64,000 nt of DNA from Tubiluchus corallicola (Eukaryota; Priapulida; Priapulimorpha; Priapulimorphida; Tubiluchidae): positions 186,001 through 250,000 of the forward strand of contig JAQGDQ010000046.1 of the NCBI GenBank assembly GCA_030141605.1. Reading direction: 5' to 3'. Position 1 is the stretch's first letter; the number at the start of each line of letters is the position of its first letter. Below are positions 32,301 through 64,000 of the stretch, piece after piece. Below the pieces are notes generated by a model. It saw nothing but the letters and a program-made list of their open reading frames with translations, was not told the origin of the DNA and searched no databases. Position numbers and translations under genes: made by a program.

Positions 32301-35300
32301 AAAATTATTATGCTAAGGAATTTGTTTAGCAGCATGGGCAGTTGATTATTTTAACTAACTAAGACATCAACATGTTATGAATTAAGTTTGAAAACATTTA
32401 TAATGAGTTTTTTTAATTTTGAAATTATCTTTGCAAGTGCTGTTATTTTTTGCACTTTTTGTAATAATTCATTAACATTGCATGTCTATATATATTTGAC
32501 CTAGTATTCATTCTTAGTCATTTATTTGCATTCGACAGATCAGTAATTAAATAGTAATTATATTTCAGAACATGTTGGGCGGTTGAAAAAACTTGAGTAC
32601 ATTAATCTAACTCTAAATAATCTGACACAAATTGAAAATCTAGAAGGTAAATTTATAATATTTTAGTTACCAAGAAGTAAAAGGACTTCGTTAGCAGTAA
32701 AAGGCACTATAGTTTTTTGCAGTAATTTGATATTGCTGTTCGTTTTCATGATTTACTATGTGTTTGGTAACAGCTATTTAATGTAACTGATTTGAAATAA
32801 AAAGAAAAAAATTACAATCAACTATTCATAAGTAATAGTCAGGCATAATAAAATGAAGTAAGCGTGCTTGAGTGTTAATTGATATTGCGAGGCAAGTGAA
32901 GATATGTATTATCTATTTTTGTCTGTTCAAAGAATTATAAAAATTGTTCAAACAAATAAAAAATTGTAACTAGTTGACAATATTTCTGACGTTGTCGGAA
33001 ACTGAAGATTTTGCAAACAATAATTGTAAGACTGAGCCTTGAAAATAAACAGACGACAGCCTTTTTTTTGAAAGTGCTTATTTTCTTTTATTGAAGTGCT
33101 TGAATACATGGAAAGTGCATTTCACAATGAAACCTCAGCATTTGACTGTTCAGCTCATCACCCATCAATGGTCAACAATCTTGACATAACTTATATCATT
33201 CAGTTTGTCTCATGGAGACCTTTCATTTGATATACAACAGCCTACTTTTGGTAGATCCTGGAAGGCATTTGTCTCCTCGATCCCCATTTTGTCCCTTAAC
33301 TGGGCCACAGGTTAACGATTCACATTGTAACCCATACCATTCGATTCGCCTCATCAAGATCTTTCATTTGACGTGCTATATGTACTATTTGTAGACACTC
33401 GATACATTTCTGTTCTCGATCCCCATTTTTCGGTTTTTGCCCCTTAGCAGGCTTGCGGTTTAGCCATTCTCATTGCAACCTATGCCACTCGACTCGTCTC
33501 ATTGGGACCTTTGATTTGATATGCTACACGTCACTATTCTAATACCCTTGTGCATTTCTGTTCCCAACTCCCATTTTTTGGGTTTTGCCTCCTAGCAGAA
33601 AAATTTCCCCCTCCAAATCACCCATATTCTGCCATATCCAACAACTTGGCCCTACCTAACCATATACCAAATATTGTTGCCCTAGCTCAGAACTATGGGA
33701 GCAGACGGATCCTAAAGAAAAATAAATGAAGACCCGCCTGCTCCATGACCTTTGACCCAGCAACTCGGGTCACACTTATACGTAGATAACTTTGGCCAGA
33801 GAGTTTACCCTGTGAGTTTTGTGTCCTTAACCTTCAGCATGTAAAATTTCACAAATTGCGCGATCCCAAGTTTTGAATTTTGGCCCCTCACTGGGGTGTT
33901 TAAAGCTTGTCAGCTTTTTAAAACCCCAGGTGCCCCACAGTACCCAAATACTTGTGAAAAAAATTGGAAAAAAACGAAAGCCCTAGGAGGAGTGCGACTT
34001 AAATGGAAAGGTGACTGATGTCTACTGCCCTTCCCCCTTGACAAGTGGTCAGTGGTCACCACACGGTTGTATGTCCCCCATCCAGGTCTACCAACCCTGC
34101 AAGGCTTGCAAGCCTTATGAGTTAGTAAGCGTTAAAGTGGCGGAGAATAAATTAATAATAACTAGTTGACAATGTTTCTGACGTGGTCAGAAACTGAAGA
34201 TTTTGCAAACAGTAGTTGTAAAATTCAGCCTTAAAAATTAAGAGATGACAGCCTTTTTTGAAAGTGCTTATTTTCTTTTATTGAATTCACCTTGCTCGAG
34301 AACATAGAAAGTGCATTTCACAATGAAATCTCTGCATTTAACTGTTCAGTCTGTCACCCACGGGTCAAAGGTCAACCAATGTCAACATAACTTATTTCAT
34401 TTAGTTTGTCTCACTGACATCTTTCATTTGATATATGTACTACAAGCTAGTTTTGGTTAACACTTAAAGAAGTTTGTCTTCTCGACCCCTATTTTGCCCT
34501 TGCTGGGGTCAGAGGTCAACCAGTCTTGCCATAACTTATGCCATTAAAGCTCACTGAGACCTTTCATTTGATATACTACAAGCTACTTTTGCTCAACCCT
34601 GAAAGACATTTGTCTCCTCGACCCTAATGGGGTCACAGGTTAACATTTCTTATTGTAAATCATACCATACTCATCGAGACCTTTCATTTGATATGCTACA
34701 TGGTACTATTCCTAGACAATCGATGCATTTCTGTTCACGACCCCTATTTTTAAGTTTTTGCCCCCTATTGGGGCCTGAGATTAACCGATCGCTATGCAAT
34801 TATTACCATTCAATTTGTCTCATTGAGACCTTTGATTTGATAGACTACAAGCTAGTTCCAGTCAACACAAAGGCATTTGTCTCCTCGACCCCTATTTTGC
34901 TGTTAAATGATTCTTATTGTAACCTATGCCATTCGATCCGTCTCATCGAGACCTTTCATTTGATGTGCTACAAGGTACCGTTGCTCAACACTTGAAGCTC
35001 TTCTGTTTCCGATCCGCATTTTTCAGGTTTTGCCCCCTAGCGGGGTCGCAGATTAACTATTCTCATTGTAACATATGCCATTCGATCCGCCTCATCGAGA
35101 CCTTTCATTTGACGTGCTACAAGGTACCATTGCTCGACACTTGGTGCACCTCAGTTCCCGGCCCCCATTTTTCGGTTTTTGCCCCCTAGTGGGGTCGCGG
35201 GTTAACTATTCTCACTGTAACCTATGCCATTCGATCCTCCTCATCGATACCTTTCATTAGATATGCTACAAGGTACCATTGATCAAGACTCAGTGCACTT

Positions 35301-38300
35301 CTGTTTCCGACCCCCATTTTTCGGTTTTTGCCCCCTAGCGGAGACTTTTGCCATATGCGCGCTTCCCATATTTTGCGATGTGCAAGGCCACGTCACCACC
35401 TAGCAATATACCAAATATTGTGGCCGTGGCTTAAAAACTGTAGGAGCAGATGGATCATAAAGAAAAATAAATGAAGACCCTCCCGCTCCGTGTCCTTTGA
35501 CCCGTATCCCTAGCTGTCAGCATGTAAAAGGTCACCAATCAGGGTTCTCCAAATTTTGCATTTTGACTCCTCCATCGGGCAGTTGAAACTTGCCAGGTTT
35601 TTAAAACCCCAGGTGCACATCTACCCCATTGTACGCAAATACTTGTGAAAAAAAATGGAAAAAACCAAAAGCCTTAGGAGGAGATGTGACCTAAAGGAAA
35701 AATTGACCAATGCCCACTGCCCTTCCCCTTGACCAATGGTCAGTGGTCACCACACTGTTGTACATCCCTCGCCCAGGACTACCAACCCTGCAACTTTGGT
35801 GACCCTAGCTTGCAAGACGTAGGCGTTATTAAGCGTTAAAGTGGCGGAGAATGAATAAATAAATAATAATAACTCAATAAAAACAGTAAAATTTTGCTAT
35901 AGCAAAATCTTAATTACTGGGAAAACTGTCATATTTCGACAAAGAGGCAGTCTGGAGAAATCCTGTAATAGTATCGTACATTCTTGCTTCTTTATTTTTA
36001 GGTTGTGAATCTCTGACCAAACTGGATTTGACTGTGAATTTTATTGCTGACCTTACCAGTGTAAAGTCACTGAAAGCAAACAAGTTTCTGGAGGAATTGT
36101 ATGTGCAAGGAATTGAAATTATCATATATGTGTAAACATTTCTGAACACAGGCTTACATTGTCAAGCTTTTAAAAGTGTAATCGCACATTTTAGATCTAT
36201 AATCTGCTGCCTCATTTGAATGCAATTAAACATCAAAAATCATCTGGTCCACCTATGAACATTAAAATGTATTTAATGAAAAAAGATGCACCTATAAAAA
36301 TATTAAATTTATGTAAACTTTACTAAGTTGCTAGTATATGATATGATGACACTTGTTTGTGTTTTAGTGGAATCGGGTTGATCTTTGTGTTTTGTTTAAG
36401 GTGTTTGAAGAGAAATTTTGTGTTCCTACTAGTTTTTGCCTTCTGTGGAAATGTTATTGGTCAAGTAGAAACTAGATTGCACAAATTTAGTGTATGAGGC
36501 AAAATTAGTGAGGCAGAAAGTGTAGTTACTGATGCAGCATTTTTAAACAACATATGCATATGTATTACATATGTGAAGTGATTATATTAATCACATATTT
36601 GATACCGCTTTCTCAGAATGATTGACTGAAACCAATATAATAAGTATCAGATAGCAGAAAAACAGAATAGTAAGGCAAAATAGTAAAACTGGCAGAAATT
36701 TAAAAGAGCAATCTTATAAGAACAACTGGAGAAAATGTTTCAAATTAAAGGCTGCATATAGTACATGCAATAGGGATGCAAATTTATAATTTTTTATCAT
36801 TTAAACTTTTGCAGCTCGGATGCAGGCTAATGTAGTATGTAACTATTCCAGGTATTTAACAGGAAATCCTTGCACTGACTTTGATGGTTATCGGCAGTAT
36901 GTAGTAGCTACTTTGCCGCAATTGAACGTACGTAAATTACCTGTAGTTCATATGAACTAGCATGGAATATATGTTCAATATTGGACATTTATAATATGAT
37001 GTTGCTTGGAAACTAGTAGCATAACTATAGACACACAGGCCCTGCAGTTGCAAAGTTCCCTTTCATTGGAGGAGTCCTTGGTCAGTATTGGGATAATTTC
37101 TTCACTAATGTAGCTGTTACAATCGCAGTTGCATTTTTTAAAATGCATAATTACTTTTCACACTCTCGAATTCTCTTTAGTCTTATATCATTTTTAAGCA
37201 TTCACGGCTCTAAATTTGCGTGCTTGTTTCATAGATCATACTGTTAATATTAAATGTTTCAAGTATAGTATTTTGATGTTGATTTGTTAATGATTATTAT
37301 GTTGTGTATCTTTCCTCTTAACCATGTAAGTGTAGAATATTCATGCCTCACTGGCACTTTTGTTCCTATAAGAGAAAATGAAGTCGAGTAACTACCTGCA
37401 AGCTGTTGCAGTTACAGTATATAGCAAAAATGTGTGTTTTGCTTTCTACTTATAATAGTGTGTGTAAATCTGGTGTAGAAGGGAAACATTGTTTTTTGCT
37501 GTTGCGGGCCTGTTTATGCAGACATCAATTTTGGCTGTTGCATTATGCAGTAACGCAGATCTTGTGTGCCTGGGTGAAGTATGATATGCAATTAATTAAA
37601 AAACTTTTGGTTTGGTTTGTTTTACTAAATTCTAAGCAAATGTAACCGAAAAAGTAATAGTTGTTTCCATATATGCTACAGCAAAAAGAAACTTGTTATA
37701 GTTACAAATTACTTCAAAAAGTTTGTAATTCTTTACAGTTACAGTATCACATTTCTGGAGATACTCTACAATATGTATACATTTGTAACGTGTTACTTGG
37801 TCACGAAGAAGACTGCGAGTGCACCGAGTGCATAATTAGGTTTACCAAATACTTGCTAACATGTAATCACGAAGAAATAAAATTTAAAAGCAACTTGTAA
37901 CAGTTTATATCAGATTTTAAAATTTGTACTACATCCATAAGCCACAAAAATTTTACTTTTGAACTATAGGGGCCTAATTATTTTGCAAAGTGACAAAAGT
38001 ATAACTATGCTAGCCAACCCAGGAGAGTTTAGCATTACAGACTAGAAACACTTGGCTGTTTGAATTGCACGTATGTCTGCTATGGTAGAATTACTTTTAA
38101 AGTGATCAATGTGCTTGACAAAAATACTGAATGCTCACAATTGTTATGACTAATATCTGTTGAATGTTCAGTTCTTAGATGTTGTAGTTTTTGTGTAGAC
38201 ATCTTATAAATTCTTTTTACAGAGGCTAGATGGCAAAGAAATACTTAAGTCAGAGAGAATAGAAGCCATGCAGGTAATTGTTCTTTTTACAAAAATTAAA

Positions 38301-43573: not shown

Positions 43574-43577
43574 AGTT

Positions 43578-43659
43578 CTTTACAGGCATGTGCTATACTA
43601 AATTAGCGCCTGACGACTCTTTACAGGCATGTGCTATACTAAATTAGCACCTGACGAAG
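43578..43659 (+). repeat. 41-bp tandem duplication just after the DNAAF11 stop codon
   Basis: CTTTACAGGCATGTGCTATA and the following 21 bases are present twice (43578-43618, 43619-43659) with essentially one substitution (TTAGCGCC/TTAGCACC). It lies in the 3' untranslated region, four bases after the stop. Confidence 0.95.
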
Positions 43660-46554
43660 TGCTGTTATGCAAAACAGCAGCACATTGGATCGAGTATGAT
43701 TTTAAATGTACGTAGTTGTAATATTGAATGTGTCGAATCAATGAAGTCGAGCAATTATACTGTGCCAAAACAAGTTAACGGCAATTCCTTGATTTTGCTA
43801 GCATACCTATATAAACATTGGTGATTTCCCTAGAATTGCCTGAATGTATATGAAAATTTGATTCACAATGTACTAAGAAAAAAGCACTTAACATTGTCAC
43901 TGTTAGAAAGAAAAGTTTATTTAGAAATAACAACAAAAAATACTGCCATAAAATCGAATATTGCAAGCTGAAAGATTAAAACAGTAACACTAAAGTTTTA
44001 ATAACAGCAAATACGCATGTGTTTGGATGCTGTAGTGTCTATAACAAAAGTACTATATAGGACATCTTGTTTTTTTTTTACTTTTTACAAATCCAGCCAA
44101 ACTAGTAGATCATTGTTCATGAATTTTCTGTTGTTCTAAGTTAACTTGGTAAGATTTCCTAATAAATAAGCACCAAGGGCAAGAGGTAATTTTCACAACT
44201 AATTCAAATGCTACACAGTAATTTAGCATCCAATTCATAAAACAAAATTACATCCACTTTTGAAAGTAAACAATATTTAAATCAACATTTTCAACGTAAC
44301 ATTAAAAAGCAAAAATATACAATTAAAGTTCTTTCTACAATAATGACACAAAATAGTCTGCAAAAAAACTGTGAAAAAACATGAAGCCTTTTTGACAAAG
44401 CAAAAATGTTAACAATACAATCAGTCAATATAACCCGCTTTGGAAGAAAGCATATGTGCAGCAAGTGACCACCTAAATAAATTAAGTGTACCAATGCAGT
44501 ATATGTAATGATGGTAAGTAAGTCTAACAGCTGCAAGAATTAATTGCAATGAACACATTATAGGTAGTCTCAACTTTTACAGAACTTTTAGAGATTTTTT
44601 ATGGCAGCCTATAACTCAAAAATTGGATGACTAGCATTTGAAGCACTAAACGGGCGTTACTCTTTACATTAAAATATCAGAACAGTATCAGAAAATTTTG
44701 AGCACCAGGAATGTGAATCCCTCAAATTGAAATGTCATACTGGCAATACACCACAGCAACAGCAATCACATAATTATTACAAATCAATAAATAATTATAA
44801 TTATATTAATATTTCAAGATTGGTTATTATACATTAAGGGGGCTTCTTCACAATGGAAAAAATTAACTATCATTACTTGGTTATATCATTATGCAACACA
44901 TTTAGCTCTTGATACTGAAGTACTGTGTAGGCAACAATTCACAACACGCAATGTCTAAAAAGCTGCAACCTTTGTATATCACTATTTACAAAATGTAACA
45001 CAAATATAAGCAGTGGTGACTTATGTAACAAAGTCACTGCTGTTGTAGTATGGCCACCTGTACATTTGTTGTCTGAGCAAGTTACACTAGAAAAACAATC
45101 TGCAAGTTTATAGTATTACTACAATATCTTCCACAAATAAGAAACATTAACATCCTACATTACTAACAGACAACAGTCATAATAAGACAACTACCTAACT
45201 GTTTAATAGGCCTAAGCTTAGTTGCAAAGCATGTCAAAAAAGTTATAACATATCATTAGTCTTTGGTATATTAAATGGCACATACACAACATATACTGTG
45301 AAATTAGGTATACTCTATTGCTAGCAAGGATATTATGTAAAAATGGCATATCAAATTTATTAAATCATAATATTTCATTATGCTTCACAGGCTGTTGGAA
45401 GATATATGGTTTTGGCAAATATTTATTTGGAATATCACATAACTAAATTAATTTAATTATAAATGAATATACTATGAGCTCAACTTTTAGCAATTTTGTT
45501 TGATCACTTATAATAATGTTTGAAAACCTATTAATTTTGTTGGTATTAAAATCAAATATCAAGATTTCATATGCAGTATAAATTGTACGACAAATGCTCA
45601 TAGTTTACTCTAAATAATAAACAAATATGCTTATTTTAAATTCTAAATTCTGATAATAGCAGACAGTAACAAATGCAAACCATTCGCTTCATGTATTTTT
45701 TAATTGTTTTACAGATTTATTGTTTGCATGATTAATTTTTTAAGAAACAATGCTTGCTACTAAATTAAACAATACTTGTGCTTGGCAAATACTATGAACA
45801 TTAAACAAGCATTTATCAAGACGTTTTCATCATGTATATATATCTGTTACAGGCAATGTGTGAAATTGGGTACTTCATAGAGTGCCAAAACAAACCAGGT
45901 AAATTGTCTAAAATAATTCCTTCTACACTTTTCCTTGGTTTTATGCACAATGCAAAAGTTTGTCTAATTACTAGATTCTGAATATATATTTTCCTAGGCA
46001 TTTTACATAATGGAAATAGGGAATGTGTTAATTTGAATTTGGTAGGCTGGTTGGATGACAGACGGATACATAGATTAGACAGATGACAGATAGATAGATA
46101 AAAAGGTAAACGGACGGGCAGACATAGAGAGTGACAGAGATGCAATCCTTACGGCCTGCTGTGCCAGTTATAATTTGTAAATTGTCTGAACACAAAAAAT
46201 TGTTTTCTGCACCTCAGATTTCTATTACTAATCTCTTCTTCCACGACAATACTAGTCGTAACTATTTAAATCCTGCACAGCATGCAAAATTATATTTAAA
46301 CTCTAGGCCTTGTGCAAAATTGAGAACAAATTTAAGATTTTTACAAAAACAGCCTGATAAATCCGTTTGCATGTACTGCTAAGAACGTTCCTACGCACAT
46401 GCATGTTTATGAAAAAAATTGTTCCTAAGAACTCTGATAAATCCGCCCTCGTGCTTCCTAGCTATTGAAGGTGATCCACCAGATTTAGAAGCATGTCAGA
46501 GATGGTGACAATGCACCCACCGTTAGATTAGTTTAGTATGTTGGGTAACAGGGT

Positions 46555-46836
46555 GTTCAGACTGTCAAGTTTTCTCGTTAATGTTAACTCGCCAAGTAAC
46601 TTGCAAGCATATTTAGACTAGACAGCAAAACTTGCTGCGAATTACTCTCCGACAGTAAGTGTAAGCTGATTCTGTTCTTCTTTATTCACTGCAAGAAATA
46701 TCAATAGTAACTCACCGAGACGTTCACTTTAGACAGTAACTCGCGGCAACTTGCAGTAACTTGCTGACAGAAACTCGCAATTCGCAATTCACAATTCAGA
46801 GAAAAAATTCGTGACAGAAAACTTGCTAGTCTGAAC
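46555..46836. mobile_element. inverted-repeat miniature transposon (282 bp)
   Basis: Left GTTCAGACTGTCAAGTTTTC and right, read inverted, GTTCAGACTAGCAAGTTTTC differ at two bases. Sub-terminal ACTCGC/AACTTGC-type motifs recur inverted through the interior, so it could fold into a hairpin. No clear target-site duplication. A hAT-like origin is possible. Confidence 0.6.
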
Positions 46837-47109
46837 AAGTCATTGCATGCATTCCATACAATGCCTAGTCAATGTATAACATATCAAGCAAAAGTTCCAT
46901 TCTACACAAATTATGTTCATTTTACACATTGCCAAAGTCAATTTACGTATTTTGTATAAATCCTGGCAAAAAGGTTCATTTCACGTGATTATATGAAATT
47001 CCTAAGAATTTTACAAAAAGTCTGAATTTTACACATTGACTACAACATACCCAATATGAACCAAATAATTAAGATTTATTGCAAAATCTTCTTGATTGTT
47101 AATCACTTA

Positions 47110-47527
47110 TTGCTTAATAATACATTAGCCTTGCAAGCTAGAGTAACAAAACTTACAGGACGGGTAGCCCTTCTTGGTGAAGAGCAGCAGTGGAGCGACC
47201 TCTGATCTGTGGTCAAAGGTTTCGTGGGTGTGCGAGTCATTCCACTTTTCTGTTAATATACATCTCCTCCTAGGGCCTTAGGTTTTCAATTTTTTCATAC
47301 GTATTTAGGTATTGTGCGGTAGATGTGTATTAGACTAGCATATCAAATAGGGGTAGCAAGTTGCGATTTCATTGTGAAGTACAGTTCCTAGGTAATCAAG
47401 CAATGCATATTTAATAAAATCACATTTATAACTTTCAAACAAAGGGTCTTCACTTTTCATTGTCTAATTCTGTAACTATTGTCTGCAAAACTCAGTTTCA
47501 GATCATGTCAGAAACACTGTCAACTAG
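47110..47527 (-). mobile_element. mobile repeat of the copy A/B family with a single internal unit
   Basis: On the minus strand: head AACTAGTTGACAGTGTTTCT with TTTTGCAGACAATAG, then CACAATGAAATC, one TATTTGATATGCTA block, then tail GCCCTAGGAGGAGATGTAT, TCTAGCTTGCAAGGC and TATTAAGCAATAAG. The order is that of copies A and B but without the tandem expansion. Confidence 0.7.
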
Positions 47528-47803
47528 TTGTATCGAATTCTAACAATTTCATAGTACATTCTCGCCCTCAATATAAATGTTAGTTGCTAGAAATACTACC
47601 TTCTACAACTACGGTCATCATAACTATATTACAATAACAGTACCCTGTTTTACACTAATGTATGGATCAACAATGGTACCTATAACTAATTACAGTCAAA
47701 ATGACATGTACCTGATAAAAATCATGAGCATAGATAATTGCATAAACTAATGCTAAACTAATGGCATAACTACTAGTAGTTATATATTTTTATGCCACTT
47801 AAA

Positions 47804-50800
47804 CTATGAACTATCTTTAAATGTTTCATTTGCAGACGTCTGCTTGCTTTTTTCTTTTGCCTTTTCTTCATCTTGGCTGACATATAGGATAAGCCTTTCA
47901 AGTATGACTGACAAAACCTAAAAAAGGATAAGACTGAAGCACACTACAGAAGAGTTCAAACATATGAAACAAAGCATGAAATGTTAAAGAGAATATCACC
48001 CAGTATAAAACAACACTGAAAACAAAACAATACCAAGGAAACGTAAAAGACTACATTAAATACAGAAATACATTTGCCAGTACTCTACTTTTAGTTTCCT
48101 ATTGCTAATTAACAAGTACACAATAATTACAATGTAGATATGCTCGATTATTAAAATACTGCTAAAAGTCTCATCAAAATTATCTAAACTATGCTTGAAA
48201 GTTATATATATATACATGTGCACCTTGTCTACTGGATCCATGAAGCCTCTTTGTATCCATTTCGGAATAGTTGTCCTAGCATGAGTGAAGCCAAGCTTTT
48301 GGAGAATATAATCCACTCCATAAGGTTCAATCGATTTGCCAGCCCAGGACATTATTCTTTAAAAATTTACCCAACAAACTACCTCAGCATCAACAAAATC
48401 TTCTTTTGCAAACAAATGAATAGACGTTTAGAACACTAATGCACCTGCAACTCTAAACAGTCGACAGTAGTTGCAAGAGACAAAAAAACATCAAAGTGAT
48501 ACTCATGAAGGATGTATGTGCTCCAGACTTTACACTTAGATGATGAAATTCTACTCTTACTCTTAAAAGCTGGGCCAACAATGCAAATACAAGGTTTGAA
48601 CAGGGTGCTTGGTACCAAGGAAACAGCATCATTTGTGAGCATAAAAGTAATGACAATGTAAGTTAAGTCGGATTTTAATGTGGAATGTATTTGTTAATAT
48701 CCAAAAACATAGGCAAAAAGTCTGCAAATAGTCATAACAAAATATAGAATCCAAAAAATTCATTCCCATAAGATTTATTGTAGTGGAAATCTAACCACCA
48801 CCATAATCATCAGAATCTAAAACGTTACCTGACAGTAGGCTCAAGATGCCACGTCTGACAGACAAATTCCCTCCAATCTTTCTTCAACTCCTCTGTAGGA
48901 TTTGTAATACGGCGGCGTTTGTCAGGATCTGGAGAATTTGCCATTGACATTACTGAAGTCCGTGAAAAATCTATAAAATTAAAAGAATGGCTAGTTGATT
49001 ATAATACAAAGGTATATTAAATAAATGTTGGTCAAATGTCAACTTCATTAAATCGTGTTAAAACACTTACATATCAATAAGGTATCACTGCTACGAGTAT
49101 CATTGAATGCACTTTCAGCACATGCATATTAATGACATAAAAAACTTTACCCTTAAGCTGGTAATAAAAAGTTTCTCTAATTCATACACAAACAGAATTG
49201 CTACGGCCACATAATTCATCTAAGGTTATGGATAAATTTTTGTCAAAACCCTCTAGGGACAATTTTCTGGTACTTACACAAAAGCTCTAAATCTTATAAA
49301 ATCTACATCTAACCCACACAAACTATTGTGATCAGTATAAAATATGTATCTAGAAAACAAATGTAATAGCCCAGCCTTTGAATGTTAAATACATTTAATT
49401 GGTGGTGCTAATTAATTAAATGCAATACTGAATGGAATTTGTGTTTGTGTCAGTAATTTTACTTGACAAAAATTGTAACTGTTGTTAATGTACGATAAAG
49501 TTAAAGCAAATTTTCTTTGGGTATTACAAGTATTAGTATAATCTAATAATAATCTAAAAAGAAAATAATAAGACATACTAACCTTTATCCTTCTCTTTTA
49601 CGTATGACACCACAAGATCATGAAGGAAAAAAATGGCTTCGGCATCCACAGCAACAAGGATATGATCTTCAAAATCAGTAACAAAACTGTACTCCACACG
49701 AGGCTTCGGATCTGAAAGTCAAAAACGTGTAAGAGGGTTGCTTCAGAAACTGAGTTCACCAATGAGACTGCAATGTAATTTATACTGGTTACAGCAAACT
49801 TCAATCAACTAAGCTTTTCTTCAATTAATGTGAGGAAATCTCATTGCAGCAACAAAGTGCAAACAATTTTCAAGGCTTAATAACTGGCTGAGTCACTGAT
49901 GATAAACAAAGATGATAGCAAATTTTCAATTTATGTACGCTTTTGTCAACACTGTAAAGTTAGAAAAAATTTGAAACTTTAAAGATGGAGAAGCACTGAA
50001 TGTCCGAGGTTCCTAAATTACCCTTTCTTTAGTAACCAAAGCTGGAAAAGTGTGAATAAAAAAAAGAAACAGTTACTTGCAATGCTAACATATATTATAC
50101 AATATTTACATACACAAACAACATTAACAACAGTACAACAAACAAGCAATATTAATCAGCATAATCTACTACGAAAACTTGTCTACAAGTAATCCGTCTA
50201 AGTGGGGGTAACGTTCTGGTTTCTCTAAGACACAGTATCTAGACATTACCAGTGCGTTAGTTTGACAGAGGGCTTTTATAACATTCAATATTCATTATAT
50301 CTAAAAATAGATTAGGAACGAGTTTAAGATCATGTATGCCATGTTACCTTTACGAGGTCAAAACTACCTATGAACGCAGCTTCGACAAGTGTTTGAAATC
50401 GCGACTGTTTTACATTTGCAAGAGTCAGCGACAAACACTTTGACTACAACAGTTTGTGAGATTTCTATCAATGCTTCAGCCAGCCCCAGAAAATAATCAA
50501 AACAAAAGAATAACGATATTTTGTTAGTAAAAATTTATGGTAAAGAATAATGTGATTTTTCTCGATGGATCTGGAAAAAATGTGAAAAGCTGTTGTAATT
50601 TTTTTTGCAAGATCTGTCACACATGTGATGTTTTTTCAACTCGTAAACATAAATTTTAGATAATTTTAATGACTATTCTAAGTTTTCTCAACAGTGGCTG
50701 TCATGTAATCAGACTACTGAAATTTATGATAGGTAGCTTTTTTGATCCTATGTCTGAACCTACATTCCATCCAAAATACAAAAAATGATATACGGACGTT

Positions 50801-53800
50801 GTGTATCAACAAATTGCTCCCAAAAAAACAAGATATCCTAACTGTTTAAAATAACAGCAATAACAAAGCAAAATAAATTACTTGATTGTGTAGGTTGGTG
50901 TTCTTCTTGTAAATGCTCTGTCTTCAAGTTAAGCTGGAACACTGGTAGAGCAAAGATCATCTCAGTGATGTGACCATAGTCCTTGCTCTGATGACGTGAT
51001 TTTTTGTCAAGTCCACTGGTAGCTGATTCAAGGCGTTCATACTCTACTATGGGAAACCTACTCATATCTGAAGCAAAAACAGATTAATACACTTCTGTAA
51101 GTAAGAAACAGTAAAAGGTCAGTGCAATAAAGTGAGTATAAGCTTGTTATTAAGCAATGATTAGCAATGGATATGCTTATTATTTTCTGTAACATGTAAG
51201 TTGCAGAAATAATTAGCCGCCACAGTGTGTTGACTGCTAAGGTGAATTGAAAATGTCAACAATGAAAGCCCTTAACAAATTTTCTGCATGTCAATTAAGA
51301 ATATAAAACACAAAAGAAGTTACAATTGAAAAGTTAGCAATTTTCGATAATAAAATTAAAATGTGTTTTGGCAGATAGGATTCAGTCCGTTTCCTGAAAC
51401 TGTGGTACATTTAAATGACTGGTTTCATTCAGATTCATAATGCGTAAACATTGCGCGTGAAATTGATAGAATCATTTACTACTGTTATTTCGCTTTACAC
51501 ACAATTACATAAGACACATAATGGTTGACAAGAGAACGCGCTGACAAATAAACTACATAACCTATTAACAATGCTGCTAAATTTTTCTCTATTTAATATG
51601 TACAGCCAACTCGGACTGTACGTTGTATAAGCAAATGTAAAGACAAAAAATTACTTTAAACTCGCATATCGATCATATACTTTCAGCAATGTACCTCAAA
51701 CAAACTGAAATAATTATCTATGTAAGTGGCATGTGCAAAAACTGCTTGACTCGGTCATCTAGGAAAATAATGAAGATGCCTAATTGCAGACTTAAACTTG
51801 TAAGTAGCCATTTAATCCCTAATTAAAATTCTGCATCTTCTGGTGCAGATTTCTATCACACAGATTTTGTGATTAGATAATCTTTAAAATTAGACCCTAT
51901 TGCCCACACATATAGCTGATGATGAATAGGTGGATAAAAATGTTTATAACTCCCACTAAGTCACTGAGGTTTGCAACTTACCATCAATTTCACTGGATGC
52001 AAAAGCGTAATTGAACCAATCACCCACAGCGCGAAACTGTGGTGGAATGTAATGACTTCGGGTTATACGACAAATAGTTGCCATGTCTTTGCTATGTGTA
52101 TGTTCTGTTGTGTGGTGGCCCAGTCTCAACGATAGGTTCTGAACTATGTGTGTGCTGCAAGACTCTAAAATATCGAGAATGACCAAATCTAGTGAGACAA
52201 TTATGATATAGGACTATTCCACTCTTTAATGCTCTTCAAAAAGTAAAAGTATTTCTAAGTTGTACATCTTAGTTATCACTTAATATGCAAAATATCTGGG
52301 TTCAAAAACAGTGCAGTAACAACTATACTGATAAAATAATAATGATTTTAAATAGGCAAAAACAAATGAATATATCTCCAAGGTCTTTTGACTGAACGTG
52401 ATTATGAACGACCAAAACAAACTTGTCACAAAAAACAAGTTTATAGAAAAATTAACAACTAATTGGGATAAATATTATCACTCACCACCAGCCATAACAT
52501 CCTGAGCTTCAGAGGCAAAAGCAATGTGTGGTTCTCTCAAACTAAATAGTGCCCACGATTTTGATCTAAAATTGATACCATGAAAGCATGCCAGTGAAAT
52601 ATTGTTTCCCGTCAGATCGATTGTGCCACCAAGAATGGTGCCATGCTCAGGGAGTACATTAGCGAATGTACCAAGACGGAATCCTGATACTAGCTCCAAC
52701 ACTTTCTGCCAATGTCTATGATGTCGTACAAAGTCTTCTGCATATTCTAAAAAATGAAATAATCACAAATGTTGAAACCGCAATTAAGCAAAAGATGAAA
52801 CAAATACATCCCATTTAAAAAAGTGATGCGTGTTGACCTAAATGCAATATCCCTTGGCAAGGCTCTTAGAAATGGAGAAAATAATTCTACTACATAGGTA
52901 CACACTAGTTATACATTATTAACTGTGACATTAATGATATATGTTAACTAGTGATATAAGAAAGGAGCAGTGAGATACACATAGTTAAGTGAACTCATCT
53001 GGTCGATGATATTAGGAGGAGATCAGCAGCAATGAAATCACTTGAAGATGAAAAACTTTCATATAATTAACAGAAGGACTGAAAAAACTGTATAGAAGTA
53101 GAAATTTTTATATGACCTAATAAAAGGAAATAAAAAAATGATATACCAAGATCTTCTCTTCAATTAATCATAATTATAAAACATAAGCCCTTCTTGAAAA
53201 TGATGGTTTTGAGGACTGATCAATACCTCGTTTTTTAACAATCCTGTTACTGTGCTGAGAGTCGCTTAAAATAAATTGGTTTAGCAAGGCATGATCAAAA
53301 ATGAAGTAAAATACTAGGGAATGTGTAGAATCATACAGTAACAAACAATAAAAAGAGAAGTTTATTTGGCACATAAGGGCAACACGTAACTTAATGTGAA
53401 CTGCTAATGACAACACGCTTGCCAAATTTGAGTGGAATCGTTTTTTTAAATTTAAATCCTTTTCAACCAACTCCTATAATATTCATTGTTGTGATAATGT
53501 TGTACAACCTTATGAATTCTTTGAAAAGCACAAAAACTTATTAACAAACCATCAGCAATAGTGGACAACTTTCGTCGTGTTCTAATAGACCTAGCTGTCG
53601 ATGTCCTGGGCTGCCAGACAGTTAAAACTCTTTTGCTACTATCAAACTGTTGATTGAAAAACTCCTCTAGTTTGTTTGTCATACGAAGCAAATCAGCTGT
53701 CGTTGAACGAGAGATCATTAGATGGAGCTGGTCCCAGTGAAGGTCACCAATAACAAATATGTGTGCATTCCTAAATGATAAAGATTGTGAGACTTCACAT

Positions 53801-56800
53801 AAAAATCCACTTTGCCTGCTCACCATTATTAAAAAGAATGCAAGACAACTGGAAAATTGCTGCTTATAAAAATTACACTGTTCAAACAAGTGACCAAAGG
53901 ATAAGTTTTTAAAATGACATTTTTAACTTTGTAATTAAATTTCCCATTATCAAAATTTTTACACAAACAAGGCTAACTGAAATCACAAACAAATAATTTA
54001 TATCAAACGTGTGTTATCAACAGAGTAAAAAAGACGAAAATATAATTTAAAGATGTACAGAACGGTTTGAAAACCCAGGCAACATACATCATATCGCAAA
54101 TAAATCTTACACATACAGATAATTTAACTACCCGTACCATTTTTCATAGTTTCCATAAATATGACTATTCTTTATTGATTACAAAATACTACCACACCGT
54201 GGCACACTCATTTGAAAAAAATGCATATAACTATTGGTTGGTATGATCACTAAAAAATAAGAAACCTTAAATCTTCTATGTTATCTATAAAATACCTTTT
54301 TGTTGCTGAAAGTTCTTTATCTTCTATTGGTGAACTAACACACCATTCATCATTTACTAACACATTTAATGAACTGATGCGAACCATTAATACACTTGAT
54401 CCCATGTAGTCCAACTTCGATTCCAGTGCCCGCAATGACACACCTAGTTTATGATATGGCTCCATGCCAACATCTTCTTTTACGTGTGCTGTATGTTACA
54501 CAATAAAAAATTGAAAGTCCTTTTATTTAAATGTTCAATGACAAACAAAACAAAACGTTTCTAGCAAACCTCAAGTAAACCTCAATTTGAAAAACAATTA
54601 GAGTAGCAACACGTGAAAAGAGATTGGCAACTTAACTTGAAGCAATAAAATCGGATGTTGTGCAGGACTATTTTAACTTTTCCATCGATTAGAATCACAA
54701 GCATATAATCATGTCTCAACAAAGCACAATAGACTTCAACGCAGAATTTACAGGAACGCATGAAAAACTGTAAAAAATATGTACCGTAACAATATAATTC
54801 AGATAATCCTATGGTACCACCCACAATACCACCTTTCCCATCAACAGTTGATGTACCTAAACCCATGGAAGCAAATAAATTCTTATGCCCTCGACTGCCA
54901 ATAGAAAAACGACCTTGAGATTTCAAGTCTTTGGTCAGCCATCTGAAATACATGCAAAACATTTTAAAAAATGTTCATCAGTATATTAGTTTAAGAAATA
55001 ACAAGTTTGCTTCCCAACAAAATTAAACATATTTGCCTTTGAAATGTGATCTAAGTACAGTCAAACCTCGTTATAACATCCCACTTTATAATTCCAACCA
55101 TACTTATTGCCCAGACTTTTGGCAAAACAAAGTGTCTCTATTTGCTGGCAAAACAAAGTGTCTCTATTTGCATAGACATATATGCATTAATGTACCTGTT
55201 ATAATACTAAAGTCACTTAACGCCAATTTTTTTTGCAGTCCCAAATTAGGCATTGTAAAGAAGTTTGACACTAATATGAAAAAGCTTAAGATTGCATGAG
55301 CAACACCTGTTATTCACAATCATAGGTCATAAAGTCACTTGAAATCCCTGACTATTCATCACAAGCAATGCAGTTCAAGAATACTCGCCATTACACGAGA
55401 TTTCTCCTGATTACTGGTTATTCATGATTAGATGAGATTGATCAAAGGTCATACGTGTAATTTATGATTACCAACAATAGTATGATTATTCGGTTTAATC
55501 AAGTTTAATCTTTGATTATCAACAATAACCTTACTCACGTGCAATTCCCCATTACGTTCCCCATATTCATATGAATCTCAAGCCTCGCCAGATTCACTGC
55601 AAATAGAACCAGAGTTTCCCATATTTTGCTGGATTTAGGGGGGTGAGCTCCGACAGTCAAATGGCGACGCGCTGTCACATCAGTAGCAGCCTCAGTAGGC
55701 TTTAAAACGGTACCCTTTTCTGAAGCAACTTCGTGCCTCTTTTCTTCTTGTTTTTGTTCTTCTTCACCAATCTTTTTTGATTTTATAACTGGTTGTGATA
55801 AGCGAGTTGTTTGGGGTATAGAATCTGAAACATTAACAACAGCATACCAGCACTACTTCCCTCATAGATGGAAAAATGAACTACAGCAAAGAATAAATTC
55901 CTAGTTTTTGCTATTATTACTTTAGATGAGATTTTACCGGAATAAACTGAAACTACGTACTAATTAAAAAAAAAACAGATATAACAAACATATTAAAGAA
56001 AATGGGAAATCCAAGGTGCTGAAGAATCTAGTATAAATTATTGGAATAAAAGTTATTTTTATTTTATTGCTGGTGTTGACATTTTTAGTGAGAATCTAAC
56101 AGAGCATAATGTAGACATAAGAACAAAGGTGAATTGTTTAACACCATTAATTGTAACCTGGAAGGCTTTTGCAAATTTGTGAATCAGTAAGGTGCAGTGG
56201 CTTCATGTCCATCCCATGGTAGTACGAGGCCACTGACATTTTTAGTGAGAATCTAACAGAGCATAATGTAGACATAAGAACAAAGGTGAATTGTTTAACA
56301 CCATTAATTGTAACCTGGAAGGCTTTTGCAAATTTGTGAATCAGTAAGGTGCAGTGGCTTCATGTCCATCCCCATGGTAGTACGAGGCCACTGATCAGAA
56401 GAGCCTCGCCGATGAGACCGCCTACTCATCTCTCCTGGCAGTTCACATTTTGTGTAGAAATAGGTAAGATCGCTTTCTACAGATGATCCGGAAGAAACAC
56501 TGCTGGTCTCATCTACACAAAACAGTCGAAACGTAAACTCAGATCCTTAGTTACATAATTACCAATTTCCTATACAATGAATGATTTTTAGTTAATCAAT
56601 TAATCAATTAGCTGGCAATTAACTCATTTACACAGATGTTTTAATTGCAACTAGCCAGAATTAATACACTTTGTGGTTAGGTATAAGTGATGCCCAAATG
56701 TACAAGAGTATAGGTGGTGCTGTTTGATTGTGCATGGTGGAAGGATGGATTCAGGCCTTCTCTGTCCAGTGGTGGGTTCATATCTTAGATGATTAGAGCA

Positions 56801-59800
56801 AGTGGGCATAATCCATTGGCCTCAGGCACAAGTCCCGATATATTCACAATTTTTTAGCATTATCTCTTTCTGTAAAAAATTTGTCATAAGACTAATTGTT
56901 GCATATTCTAACTGTAAAGTTCATATATTCTGACTAACCACAGTACTCCTTGAATGGATTAATTGTCAGGTAATTTAAAATTCATTAACTAAAAGGTAAT
57001 GGTTAGCAGTGGTATAGATGGTTGTGTTTCACTGTATCTGCTATACAGCTGAGAACTGCTAAGATAGATAGAACAAGTGAAAATGTATACACGATTTTTT
57101 AGCATCATCTCTTTCTGCGACAAATTTGTCATAAAACAAATTGTTTTCAAATGATTTTTGACAAACTATTTGATGATACAGAATTTCGACAAAATTTTTT
57201 AGTTCTACAACTTTGGATTAACATTTAAGATGTTGTATTCAGGAGCATAACAGCGGGCGAGTTACACTTGGATTTCATTAGAACTCTTCTGTACACTAAT
57301 CAATTCTCATAGAAATAGGCACACTGACAGGTAAAAGAACTGTTTCCTAAAACGCCATTTCACAAAAGAGAATCTGCCACAATCTAATGAAACCATCAAA
57401 ACAATCTCCATTCAAAGTCTTAGTATAACAGTATGGATAAAGTAACAGTATACTTTATTATGAATTTTAAATAACACGTATAATATATATATATGGGAAA
57501 CCTTCTGAAGAATATACTGTCACTCCACCACTTTGGTCTCCCAGAAACATGCGACGAGCAATGCTACGCCGATACCAAGCTTTTGGAAAGGCAAGAATTT
57601 CTGTCAGCCTCCTCATGTCATACTTAAACGATGCATAGCCAATGTCACATACAGCTAAAGAAAAATATTTGCTTGCTTAACATAAAAGTTTGAAATGCAA
57701 GGATCAAAATACAATACAGCACACTTGTGAGGAATGTCTTTTAGCAAACTTGAAGACGAATGTAAAGTGTTATTATGCAATCGAGAACTTACTAGAGAAC
57801 TTAATGATTGCTCTGTGTTTTGTTGATGGAGATCGGCCTGTCAAGCCATCTGACATCGCACTTTTGGAAGTGCAAGCCTCTTCTATCTTCCGACTACGTG
57901 ATATATTGACCTAAGCAAAAATGAAATGAAAACACAATTTAGATGTAGCACATTCAGGGTGTAATCTTGAGTAACCAGCCACCTACTGCCTATAAAGTAA
58001 AAGTTATGGAAAAATATTGATGTAGGAGACCATAAAAGATAAAAAAGAACAGAATATGTCTTCAAAATGCAACTTGGCTATAATACAAATCTTGGAATTC
58101 CTAGATTTTAAATTTCTAAGAATTAAACAAATGCAACATTTGCCATTAACGAACTTACCTCTGAATTAAATAAATATTCAAAATGACAATCTAACTTATT
58201 ACAGTTTAATAATAATAATGTTTACTGTCAATTCCTCGCTTCAAAACTTCATAATAAAAAAATATAAAAGCAGCTTTACTCACTTTCACAAATTCCACGT
58301 TAAGGCTCAGAGAATCTTTCCGGACCATATCTATGTAAGGGGACGCATGTTCTTGCTTTTTGCCTGCAACACCTAGTGCCACCTATATACAAGCATGATT
58401 ATCAATAAGGCTAAAAATATAAAAAATTCAAGATAAAATCTTGAAGCAACCAAAAAAAACCAAGCAAAACTTATTAGTGCCTTGTATTTCTTTGTAAAAA
58501 GAATTACAAAGCAGATGCCTTAATGAAAATAATACATGAAACTGTCTGAAATATAGTCAGTACTAATTTAGCTGCGCTTACAGTAAATCAACCAAGTGTG
58601 TAGTTTCTTGAGCAATTTTGTAAAACATGGTCAAATAAATCACTAATAAACTGTGGTGTCAGTGCCAAATACTAACAGATGATATAAATTTGTTATCTTC
58701 AATTTACATTTTTTATGTTTATAAAACGTGTTTGTATTACACAAAATACCTCATGCAAGACTGTTAAATTTTTGTTTAATTTTACTTTAATTTAACTTTG
58801 CCATAAATAATGCCAAAAAAAAGTACGTTAACGTAACAGGTGGGTTGTTAGCACCTGGATTTTGTCCAAATGAGACTATCAGTTCACAGTTTTATGAATT
58901 ATTAAACCTGTTAATTGCTTGCCGGATTTTCACAATGCAATTAATTATTTAATCTTTACTGTATGTTAAGGTGTATTGTAAACATAATAGGCTATACAGG
59001 AATGATTTAAAGTCATGTAAAGTTACCGGTTTGCATAGTAGACTTAATGTTACAAGCTATTAACTTTGTAACTAGTCATAAAGTGATTCTTCAATTTCTA
59101 CTAAACTAATTTCTCTAGTACATATCGATATAAGCTTGTTCAGGGAGTTTCTCCCTAGAAAACAATTATTATGTGTTACAGGGGATATACCTAATTTCCC
59201 ATTTGTCTAGGCAAAGCAGTTAGTATGCACAATGTAACAACTAAAATGCTAGAGCAGATGATGTAAAAAGTTGTTTATTTATAGTTAAAACCGTGATATT
59301 GTATACTACCCATAATGTGACATCTAACCAAGTTATCATCTATCATCATTTCTTAAGCACAATTAACTATAGTTTATAAAACCATAAATAACGAATTGAC
59401 TTTCTCAACCCCTTGTGCAGAATTGTTAAATTTTTAAGCTGTTGGTTTCTATATCAGCATAGTAAATAAGTAGGTCACTGCAATAGCTGGGTTATTTAGT
59501 GCCTCCATTTTGTGCAAATGAGATGGTCATTTTAGAATTTGAGGAACATTACACATTCAAAGACATCATACAAAAAATGCACTAACAGAGCTACCCAGTG
59601 GATTGTATTTTCAAGGGGCACTTACCTTTTTTCCTGCACCACCATACGGGTGGAATATATACATAGAAAAGTCAGCCAGGCTAGCCGTAATGCTGATGCC
59701 ACCACCACCTACAGTAGTGCCACCAGTGGAAGAATCTTGACTTAGGCTAGTACTGAACGAACCCCGACTGTTACCACTGCTGGTACGCGCACGTTGTCCC

Positions 59801-62800
59801 TTACTTGTATCTACATAACAAAAAAAAACTGTGTCAAATTCAACAAATTACATATGACGTACATTTTTAATACTTCCTGCACGTGCAGTGGAAAATTGCA
59901 AAATTGAGAAACAAAAAAGATTATGACATCATATTCCTGGTCCACAACTTCCGACCTAGAAGCCCCCAGCTCTGGAACTTAATGAGGCCCCTTACTGGAT
60001 TCGCACGTCACCTGGTTCTCGAGTTTTGACACTAGAATTACTGTACATTAAGCGGAGGGTATTGAATAAGAAAATCATATTGCAATATATCGCGATATTC
60101 TTGCACAATGCAATATGTATTGTGATGTATTGCCATTTTTAAAGGAAATATAAGTCAATATGTAGAGAGTGATGCACAATGCAGGAGAGTGATGCACAAA
60201 CGCAAGCAGCACATTTCAAAATTTCACTTCCCCGCAGTGCAGCTCTCATTAGTATACATGAAGTGTGCATTGTTCAGTTCTGGTAAGCTTTAGCAGTTCA
60301 GTTTGTTGAAAGTGTAATGATTTGGGAGCTCGTAGTTTAGGTGGTTCTTGCTAATGTATCTACAATTGCCCAATTGCCAAAATCACCTAAATTGCAAATA
60401 TGCTATAACCTGAATCAAAATTTGTGAATTTGATGAACTGATTTAAACTGAGATTGAATGAGAATCTTACATAATAGCTCAGTGGTTTGCAAATTTTGTA
60501 ACAATATTGTCCAGTCAAAAGACATTAGGTAAATTGTCAAGGTGCTCCTAGTGTAATGATGACCTCAAGCAGTTACTGATTAACCTTAAAAAACAGTTTT
60601 AAAATATTTAATGAAATGATCATATTTGTTACACGTTGCAGGATTATAAGTTTTCGCTGTGAATTGAAGCAGCACAGTGAAAAATGCAATAACCAGAAGG
60701 GCCACTCTTGCTCAGAGACCCTTCAGCGCTTACTGGGAAAGCCAGCATGGTAGTTACAGCCCAGGGCAATCTGTCAACATCCCCAAAAAAACTGGTTCAA
60801 TGTCTAGAATTGTGAAGACACATAAATGCATCTTAAAAACATCCTAAAACAAAACAAAATACAAATTATAAATTATAGTATGATACAAACTTTTGACATT
60901 TGAAAAAGATGTCTCATGTGATATATTAGCACTGGACAAAGCATCGCCCGTCTCATCGGTCTTCTTTGATGACACAACAAGATCCACTGAGGGCAGCCTA
61001 AAAAAATCAACAATGGCGATTAGCATACTGGCAAAGTGATAACTTATTCATGATGATCACACCTCACACCTGGTTTGCAAAGCTGTGTATGTGATGGCAT
61101 GGCTCCTTTAAACAAATAAATCACATGACATTTCAAAATCAAAACAGAAAAGTACGATACGATCGTTATGTAATGAGGGCATAGCTTGAAAAGCCAGATT
61201 GCTGAAAGTGCAATAGGACTTATGGCAAACTCACAGCCAATAAAAAGGACTTAGAATCTCATACATACAGTCACTATGATGTAAAACCTCTTAAGTAATG
61301 AAATTAAAACTATTCATATAGGACCTTATTCGCTATATAATAATTAACTTATACCAGACTGCCAGACATACTATTTCAGGCAGAAGCAATAGGTCTCTAG
61401 CTAAAAACACTGCATTTGTAGCACTCGTCTTCACAACTTTATTAATGCAGTATTGATTTTTTTGCTTAACTTATAATGTTAAGCTTGCTGTATCATAAGG
61501 AACTAATAGGTACAAATAGTAGGTGATGCTACAAGTAGTAGCAGAAACTAAAATGGCCTTGAATAAGATAGGTATCATAGTAATCTTACACTTAAACTTT
61601 ATGGTACATATTGATTTCAAATTTTACAAAAAGAATCTGATTTCATGTATTAAGACACTTTCATGCTCGTTCAGAATTTGTACTCTTTCACCAGCAACAC
61701 ATCCAGTCTTTTCTAATTCACTTAAGTACAGTGTTTCTGGAGAAACTCTCAATGTACATTTATGGAAGACAAAAGTATGGATCTACTAAAATTACAGCAA
61801 AATCTATGTCGAGTTTGTTGTTTATGAATTAATTAATATAACTTTTAAACTACTTGAAATGCAAAACATTGACAGGTACATTCTAAAACACTGACATAGG
61901 CATTTTGTTTCAGTTTTAACGTTTGTTAGCCTAGTAACTCCTTCCTAGTAACTTAAAGCTTACCACAGTAACACGGAGACAAGAAGAGAATTAAAAACAC
62001 ACTAAAAATCTTACAACATGCAGTACAGAATAGGACTAAACAATGACTAATCATCATTTAGTGAACAACTGACTGATTACCTCAACAAGCATTCGACACG
62101 GGAAACTGGAAGGCAGCTAAATCGAAATACACTAGGCTGAACCCTCAGGTAGACGACGACATCAACAGGAAATGATGCGTAGACATAGTTGCCATCAGAT
62201 ACTAATGATGCAGATGATGCTTCCATGTTGAAAACACTTCCTACAGCTTCGCTGGCTAATGAAGATAAAAGCTGGCTGCATTAATGTGAATAACTGTTAC
62301 AAAAAGCTTAACTATAATAACAATTTATGTGAAGGTTATGTAATATCATTTGCAGAGACAACTTTGTGCAAAATATTCTAAATGCAAAGGTTTGTATACA
62401 ATAACGGACTAAGACTAAATAATGACTAATCATCATTTAGTGAAAAACTACTTAAACAAGCATTCGACAAGTTTGGAATAAAAAATGTAAGTATCACCAA
62501 GTTTATATAAATGCTGTATATTATATACATACACATAATATTCTTATACAACAAGAAACAAAAGTCTTGTTAGACAAAGTGAAGTTCAGCACAATACTCA
62601 TGCCACATAAATGACAATTTCTACTCTTTTTACAAAAAGCAAAAAAACATTTCCGGTGCCTTTGCGATTTATGTACTTACTTTGTGGAATGGCAGGCTTT
62701 TGCACTGTGCCACCTTGTTGTAAAGGAAACACGTCCAGTGCTTCTTCCAAGAAATCTAGCAATGTCGGGCTAATAAATGTTTCCTGTAAGACCACAGTTA

Positions 62801-63461
62801 TAAAATACTTCATACGTACCAAAGACATAGTTTTTTTGAACCTGAGGGCAGGCCATTATTATCTTAGAACCTACATAGGTCAGCAAAACTAAGACGTCAA
62901 CTAGTTACTTTTGGAGTGACCTATCTTTTAAAACAAAAATGATATCTATAGCAACTTATTAGGATGTTCTTGTTAAGAAGCATATAAAGCTAGCATGAGA
63001 ACAAGGCAATTCAACTTACAAAGTGTTCCGCATACGATAGTATATGATCAGGCTTTATAATACGTAACAAATCGGGAACAACAAAAATTGTAAACTCGGT
63101 TGTTGGAAAAAACAATTTCATAATGCTTTGCACAGAGAATTAGAAGCAAAAACATGACTGAGGCTCGTTCATCATATTTGCACCCATTTGGGGAACAGAC
63201 ACACCTCCTTCGAATATACCCACATCCCTCTTGACATACCTCTACAGTTTGTAGACTCAACCAAGCATACAAATTTGCCCTTTTCATGCCGCTCTTCCGA
63301 CTGAGTCCTGACAGTGCTGCTGAACTGCAAGTTCTTTGTAAAGACAGGTTTTCTGTAGGTACTGATGAAATAAGATGGCCTGCATTAGTTGGTAAGGGCT
63401 GTGCAGGTAAACCCAACATTGCTGTAGGTTCTGTCGAAGCCGTTTTAGAATTGTAGTGCAC
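47804..63461 (-). CDS. BLTP1: BLTP1 (KIAA1109/tweek/FSA) bridge-like lipid transfer protein, C-terminal 1180 codons, 5' end beyond the window
   Basis: Giant tube-shaped protein that moves bulk phospholipid between membranes at contact sites and acts in endocytic membrane recycling. Exons (high to low): 63240-63461, 63020-63094, 62681-62783, 62081-62255, 60891-60997, 59626-59810, 58284-58382, 57793-57910, 57502-57654, 56315-56512, 55539-55824, 54785-54942, 54296-54488, 53472-53770, 52486-52746, 51982-52188, 50882-51067, 49583-49711, 48829-48970, 48224-48356, 47804-47917; every junction agrees in phase and the sum is 3543 nt. Diagnostic stretches: CLPVSRVECLLRLPSVDLV, ASLADFSMYIFHPYGG, FPKAWYRRSIARRMFLGDQ, KGGIVGGTIGLSELY, PKPRVEYSFVTDFEDHILV and GVDYILQKLGF before ARTTIPKWIQRGFMDP: this is the FSA_C region. 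The exons at 63020-63094 and 56315-56512 rest on open frame, splice signals and phase rather than remembered homology. The tail (DEEKAKEKSKQTSANE) is hydrophilic. Confidence 0.95.
55058..55271. mobile_element. pogo/Tigger-like miniature transposon, copy 2 (214 bp)
   Basis: In a BLTP1 intron. TA flanks (55056-55057, 55272-55273); left CAGTCAAACCTCGTTATAAC, right inverted GTGTCAAACTTCTTTACAA. The AAACCTCGTTATAA core is the classical Tigger-type terminus. The block GGCAAAACAAAGTGTCTCTA is repeated twice in tandem (about 55111-55153), which makes it longer than its relative at 22471-22646. Confidence 0.8.
56078..56392 (-). repeat. 157-bp tandem duplication covering the end of a BLTP1 exon, its donor and intron start
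   Basis: Copies 56078-56234 and 56235-56392 are nearly identical; the obvious difference is one extra C in the right copy (CATCCCCATGG against CATCCCATGG). In transcript direction the right copy contains the genuine end of the exon 56315-56512, and the left copy lies downstream in the intron. Confidence 0.97.
56158..56232 (-). CDS. candidate 75-nt duplicated cassette exon of BLTP1
   Basis: On the minus strand the left copy of the duplication has an AG acceptor at the junction (TCTCACTAAAAATGTCAG), followed by 75 nt and the donor GTTACA identical to that of the parental exon. It enters and leaves in phase 1. Because this copy lacks one base in the ATGGGG/ATGGG run, splicing from phase 1 brings it into the parental frame, giving VASYYHGMDMKPLHLTDS and onward to KSLP. 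Unless spliced this way, the missing base would put it out of frame. Use in mRNA is unknown. Confidence 0.4.
56844..57146. repeat. diverged direct repeat in a BLTP1 intron
   Basis: The block around ATTTTTTAGCATTATCTCTT (56844-56900) recurs with few changes at 57089-57146, about 245 bp away, and a GAACAAGTG/GAGCAAGTG block precedes each. It may be a decayed SINE-like tail duplicated in place. Confidence 0.5.
58720..59535. repeat. diverged direct repeat in the BLTP1 intron 58383-59625
   Basis: Blocks CAAGACTGTTAAATTTTTG, TTAGCACCTGGATTTTGTCCA and AAATGAGACTATCA near 58755-58880 recur as CAGAATTGTTAAATTTTTAA, TTAGTGCCTCCATTTTGTGC and AAATGAGATGGTCA near 59418-59530. The rest of this intron shows nothing else to me. 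Confidence 0.45.
61641..61790 (-). other. protein-like open frame inside a BLTP1 intron, unassigned
   Basis: The minus strand has an open frame reading TLRVSPETLYLSELEKTG and then CVAGERVQILNEHESVLIHE. It could form a phase 2 to phase 2 exon using AG before AGTTTCTCCAG and the donor GTAAAATT. But insertion here would split the run CLLR|LPSVDLV that is contiguous in the animal orthologue, so it is probably not a constitutive BLTP1 exon. It may be an alternative exon, a gene fragment or chance. Confidence 0.2.
62031..62469 (-). repeat. decayed duplication of a BLTP1 exon end with its donor and intron start
   Basis: The segment 62031-62098 (18 nt of the end of exon 62081-62255, the donor and about 45 nt of intron) matches 62413-62469: GACTAATCATCATTTAGTGA and CAAGCATTCGACA occur in both in the same order. 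The copy lies upstream of the exon in transcript direction and has substitutions and a short deletion around the donor (now AAG|TAGTTT), so it looks non-functional. Confidence 0.8.
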
Positions 63462-64000
63462 CTGAAAATAACAATTTTCATGTAAGGCCAAATTTCACTA
63501 AAGTGAGAACAATAAAACAAGCCATCGAAGAGAAAAATTACTAATCCTGTATGCATACGTTACAACAATTCTCATTAAGCCATTAATTCAAAAAAATGTT
63601 CAGCCTTCAATTGTTTTTAATATGATGAATAATAACAAATCACGATAAAGTATTTTTAATGAACAAAGCACGTACAATAATATTAGCACCTGTATTCGTC
63701 TACATAGTTGTATTCAAAAGCCAAGATAGATGCTATATCACATTTTCAATACCGAAGTATGATAAATAAGCATTTCTAAAAGTACAGCTCACTACACTAA
63801 TATTTAAGCGCTCTAATTTCCTTTTAACGTTGATTTTTTCCAGTGACGCAGTCAGTCAGTCATTTGACTCGTTCCAATTTTTAGGTAAACTAGTCTTCTT
63901 CTTAAGCTAACACATCCAAATTTTTTAATATCATGATGGTAAATGCAAAATGATGCATATGCAAAATTGGTAAATGCAAAATGCTAAGTAACAAAAACTT
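63462..64000. other. BLTP1 intron running off the right edge
   Basis: No exon with matching phase and homology is visible upstream of 63461; the sequence is AT-rich and the preceding exons lie beyond the window. Confidence 0.5.

Follow-up and report, generated by a model that had tools for sequence, protein, structure and literature searches.

The window, the whole stretch of 64,000 nucleotides that was analysed, carries BLTP1 on its minus strand. The gene was identified by matches to PF25040 (BLTP1_C) in the exons neighbouring the feature under study, on the same strand, and such matches were found in all three minus-strand frames of 54001-63600 and 44401-54000. The preceding exon (57529-57654, minus strand), which lies 5' of the feature, matches residues 3293-3331 of PDB 9cap_A, a BLTP1-family chain of 4299 residues, with a whole-sequence E of 5e-9, and a further match to the same chain has an E of 0.002. 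The next exon (55539-55824, minus strand), which lies 3' of the feature, has a phase-1 acceptor and matches BLTP1_C positions 1324-1353 (PF25040, E 2.6e-6). Between these two lies an exon of 198 nt (56315-56512, minus strand, phase 1-1) with a CAG/GTTACA donor. Its open frame joins the next exon, which starts at 55824, in phase 1 across an intron of 490 nt. This exon, referred to below as the parental exon, yielded no domain match of its own in Pfam. Between the two 9cap_A anchors, the second of which is a sub-match that is not significant alone, the query has 122 residues and the chain 36, which makes it probable that the parental exon belongs to a linker whose length varies. A PDB match obtained with the parental and next exons alone (E 1.3) and a match to a Pneumovirus glycoprotein (E 0.12, below its cut-off and on low-complexity linker) were both rejected as chance. 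Rfam scans at the gathering threshold and tRNA scans of the window found nothing, and a search of viral contigs for sequences related to the exon gave 45 stretches that fit the pattern, none of which was confirmed.

The 3' end of the parental exon is duplicated in tandem. In the assembly the pair consists of a 158-bp copy that holds the working exon end (56234-56391, minus strand) and a 157-bp copy inside the intron (56077-56233, minus strand), and the match between them overruns by three bases, TGA, up to 56394. The sole difference between the copies is a run of C, which has four bases in the parental copy (CCCC, 56370-56373) and three in the intronic copy (CCC, 56213-56215). TRF returned a period of 157 with 2.0 copies at 99%, and self-BLAST of the pair gave 99.4% identity over 161 columns (E = 3e-76), a similarity far above chance. 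The unit contains the last 75-76 nt of the exon, the donor and about 80 nt of intron; it is a direct tandem duplication that spans a splice signal, as in intron or exon gain by tandem genomic duplication. A sequence-only reading had placed the feature at 56078-56392, correct to within a few bases, and had described a near-identical 157-bp tandem copy carrying an exon end and a donor, a description that TRF, self-BLAST and the comparison of the copies all bear out. TGA recurs at the junction and at both outer flanks as a 3-bp microhomology, which would fit an origin by repair or by replication slippage. As we read the sequence, a run of only three C would introduce a stop into the parental exon, which would make the three C of the intronic copy the derived state.

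The duplication is a real feature of the assembly. It is nevertheless conceivable, if unlikely, that an assembly or base-calling artefact is responsible and that the duplication, or the C-run difference alone, is absent from the DNA of the animal. A change in homopolymer length is a typical long-read error, and near-identical short tandem copies can come from assembly; here the sole difference is such a change and a single assembly is the source. When the 351-bp duplicated region was searched against this assembly (343.5 Mb, 2344 contigs), in which the window is C859:186001-250000, it matched one place only, itself, so no second haplotype contig was found. Several observations argue against an artefact. 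The surrounding 264 kb, within a contig of 917 kb, has no N, and the same contig has other tandem duplications of various ages. The coding sequence nearby also reads cleanly: 20 core BLTP1 exons were located, with their ends picked by an acceptor matrix, and the 12 of them whose ends are clear, on which the frame was checked with 8 left out, contain no in-frame stop in 2014 nt, although they were chosen as open stretches.

The intronic copy holds a candidate cassette exon of 75 nt (56158-56232, minus strand, 25 codons). As had been proposed, an AG is present at the duplication junction, the 75-nt piece that follows it is phase 1-1 and open with three C, and the junctions 56315/56232 and 56158/55824 would by frame reading insert 75 nt in frame. 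With its phase-1 G the piece translates stop-free as VASYYHGMDMKPLHLTDSQICKSLP. The parental donor and the junction AG delimit a potential mini-intron of 82 nt (56233-56314, minus strand), and a competing TTAG acceptor (56252-56254, minus strand; AG at 56254-56253, first exon base 56252) lies 20 nt upstream of the junction. If the copy is skipped and 56315 is spliced to 55824, the normal reading frame is predicted. Use of the junction AG (first base 56232) is predicted to insert 25 residues, encoded by the 75 nt, with the frame staying open. Use of the AG before 56252 would add 95 nt and lead to a stop after DSH, and retention of the 82-nt mini-intron with use of the copied donor would lead to a stop after GYN.

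It is possible, at quite low probability, that the copy is a real new cassette exon, with the junction AG and the copied donor adding 25 residues to the variable BLTP1 linker. The one-base deletion would then have made a frameshifting exon coding, and it may be favoured. Slightly less probable again is the fuller scenario of a cassette exon very near its birth. Here the tail and donor of an exon would have been duplicated, the junction would have supplied the acceptor, and the loss of one base would have made the exon coding before the copies came to differ in any other way; the lipid-transfer protein would now gain 25 residues in a linker that tolerates them. The 75-nt, phase 1-1 form is open and the 76-nt form with four C hits an in-frame stop. 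The parental exon, which has no Pfam match, lies in the stretch of 122 versus 36 residues, and such a region could accommodate an insertion. The donor in the copy is identical to the real one and follows the same exon tail. The acceptor, the branch-like sites and the ease with which an open frame arises by chance count against such an exon.

Acceptors were scored with two rough matrices. The first, called the metazoan matrix below, consists of approximate metazoan values; the second was trained on 19 window sites that the first had selected and is therefore not independent of it. The set of 19 was obtained from 20 first-choice sites by leaving out the doubtful acceptor 48356 (score -4.4). By the metazoan matrix the score of the junction AG is -5.0, compared with a median of 2.2 and a minimum of -1.4 for the 19 picked BLTP1 acceptors. 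It falls under all 20 first-choice acceptors, 48356 included, and 65% of the 3512 AGs on the minus strand reach or exceed its score. The window-trained matrix also gives the junction AG -5.0; by this matrix 37% of AGs do equally well or better, and the junction AG lies below 18 of the 19 left-one-out values, the exception being 60770, a presumed real acceptor, at -8.5. The AG at 56252 scores -0.2 with the metazoan and 1.4 with the window-trained matrix, by which 7% of AGs reach it. These scores do not support the copy as an exon: the frame is open through the junction AG, but that acceptor is poor by both matrices and the better-scoring AG gives a stop. The mini-intron contains two branch-like CTNAY sites. 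Only one of them falls between the AG at 56252 and the junction, 14 nt short of the junction cut. The other precedes the competing AG and is 23 nt away from the 56252 cut and 43 nt away from the junction cut. Ahead of the junction AG the pyrimidine content is 0.53; for the picked sites the minimum is 0.47 and the median 0.67. The parental and copied donors score -0.2, the lowest of the 12 exons with clear ends; four of the 20 first-choice donors score lower, and 11% of 3910 GTs are at least as good.

The frame of the copy is matched often by chance. Parental exon tails of 40-149 nt give an open phase 1-1 exon at 36 of 110 lengths with no deletion at all, and 48 of the 72 single-base deletions tested in the 76-nt copy open the frame. 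The earlier proposal that the missing base is exactly what places the copy in frame thus holds in part: the one-base difference does make the frame work, but this particular deletion is not required. Exon-tail duplications were also simulated in 11 other BLTP1 exons (the parental exon was excluded), with 3000 duplications each, with and without a deletion. AGs scoring -5.0 or better were counted, and those within 45 nt of the parental donor or among the final 5 nt ahead of the copied donor were skipped. At least one open phase-compatible exon was produced by 67% of the duplications with no indel and by 56% of those with a random deletion. Most simulated duplications offer such an exon, so the frame alone is no evidence of use, and against these base rates the open frame, which had been considered notable, is unremarkable. 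The best-scoring AG gave an open phase-compatible exon in 47% (no indel) and 23% (deletion); at this locus the best AG of the simulated kind is 56252, which is frame-incompatible. The figure most favourable to a new exon is the junction-specific one, in which an AG at most 4 bases from the junction yielded an open phase-compatible exon in 13% (no indel) and 5.5% (deletion) of simulations that were not conditioned on the presence of an AG at the junction. The coincidence is modest, and it was singled out post hoc. Overall, the new-exon interpretation is weakly supported; the sequence-only reading had itself allowed for coincidence.

Silent recursive splicing, in which 56315 is joined to 56157, the donor is rebuilt and then joined to 55824 with the mRNA unchanged, is very unlikely. 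The copied exon end and donor do form a juxtaposed AG/GT site (CCTTCCAG|GTTACA at 56158/56157), a duplicated AGGT serving as splice sites is the classic duplication model in the available text of PMC3443670 and PMC4974935, and with the metazoan matrix the AG at 56158 scores 0.2, compared with -0.2 for 56252 and 0.3 for the parental acceptor, but the window-trained matrix gives this AG -10.9, with 76% of AGs at least as good.

Tandem repeats occur elsewhere in the window and contig. In 264 kb of the same contig with no N, TRF found seven arrays with a unit of at least 40 bp, two of them at 97% match or better, the BLTP1 duplication included. A tandem duplication of 41 bp is present at 43577-43657 (97% match by TRF), and a perfect 26-bp tandem duplication is present at 55120-55171, in a BLTP1 intron as judged by exon ends and about 0.9 kb from the BLTP1 duplication. 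The intron before the parental exon contains a direct repeat (56838-56900 and 57083-57145, 86% over 63 bp, spacing 245 bp), a possible remnant of an older duplication. A diverged repeat cluster at 32955-35341 has a tandem spacing of about 141-149 bp and copies that are 67-86% identical, one of which overlaps an open frame of 130 aa.

An older exon-tail tandem duplication is present at 26546-26760 on the minus strand, with copies that are 88% identical by self-BLAST, beside an exon with a ZFAND2 zinc-finger match (27144-27521). It is probably the first such duplication implied by the sequence-only reading, which called that in BLTP1 the second. Its 54-nt copy (26653-26600) is open and phase 2-2 by our own reading. 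The acceptor at its junction, TTTACTTTATAG, scores well (3.2), and the donor is GTAAGT (0.9). By these site scores it would be a better candidate for splicing than the BLTP1 copy. All five of its changed codons are non-synonymous, so this copy, within such small numbers, is without visible coding constraint, and it suggests that a phase-compatible exon tail can persist in that condition.

The explanation that we consider likely is a recent tandem duplication with a skipped copy, in which the C-run change is neutral or erroneous and its effect on the frame is coincidental. A TGA-flanked event would have inserted into the intron a second copy of the last part of a BLTP1 exon, together with the donor and some 80 nt of the intron itself. 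The downstream copy is most likely skipped, with 56315 spliced to 55824 and a normal mRNA as the result; a premature stop would follow if the copied donor were occasionally used while the mini-intron is retained, or if splicing occasionally went to the AG at 56252. The one-base difference would be a neutral deletion, or a base-calling slip, in a copy without coding constraint. The identity of the copies and the TGA microhomology point to a recent duplication, and the abundance of tandem duplications nearby suggests an ordinary one. The older duplication beside the ZFAND2-like exon, open and phase-compatible yet without visible coding constraint, also counts in favour of this explanation. Skipping is favoured by the gap between the junction AG and the median of the picked acceptors together with the stop that follows the better AG, and the coincidental frame is favoured by the open-frame base rates. 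On the other side, both matrices are rough, the window-trained one places the junction AG better than the metazoan one does and puts the presumed real acceptor 60770 lower still, and the pyrimidine content before the junction falls inside the range of the picked sites. The parental donor is also weak, and the copied donor, identical to it, comes after an identical exon tail. The copy may therefore not be silent, and competition between the two donors is a real possibility.

Intron gain via tandem duplication is an established process (PMC4974935, PMC2891723, PMC3443670). In the available text of PMC3443670, 188 intron-gain events are tabulated with one in vivo demonstration, and "imprecise" gains that change the coding sequence are described. 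In a potato RdRp gene, an intron was gained by tandem duplication across an intron-exon boundary (PMC4974935). According to the portion of that account available, the potato and BLTP1 duplications both span one splice boundary and inherit parental signals, and the recruitment of one new site in potato, which gives an extra intron and coding sequence, follows the same scheme as the BLTP1 candidate. The potato unit spans the acceptor side, whereas the BLTP1 unit spans the donor side and the acceptor to be recruited is weak; the potato case is backed by 106 RNA-seq reads and by relatives, whereas the BLTP1 candidate comes from sequence alone. The tandem-duplication introns of Drosophila, as presented in the accessible part of PMC2891723, resemble BLTP1 in that a small regional duplication provides both splice sites, but there exonic AG/GY proto-splice sites were duplicated and in BLTP1 an existing donor and part of its intron. 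Recursive splice sites, or ratchet points, share with the BLTP1 copy an intronic juxtaposed AG/GT, as described in the portion of PMC8605326 available, but the BLTP1 acceptor is poor by the window-trained matrix and its intron, at 490 nt, is not long. Among the literature matches listed there was no BLTP1 exon duplication, which is weak evidence of absence.

The BLTP1 copy falls in the known class of intron gain by tandem duplication; in all likelihood it is neutral and is skipped. Should it be spliced in after all, the locus would show an exon and an intron gained very recently by duplication across a donor boundary, a mirror image of the potato case. If it is not spliced in, the locus is a caution, since an open, phase-compatible frame alone proves no use.
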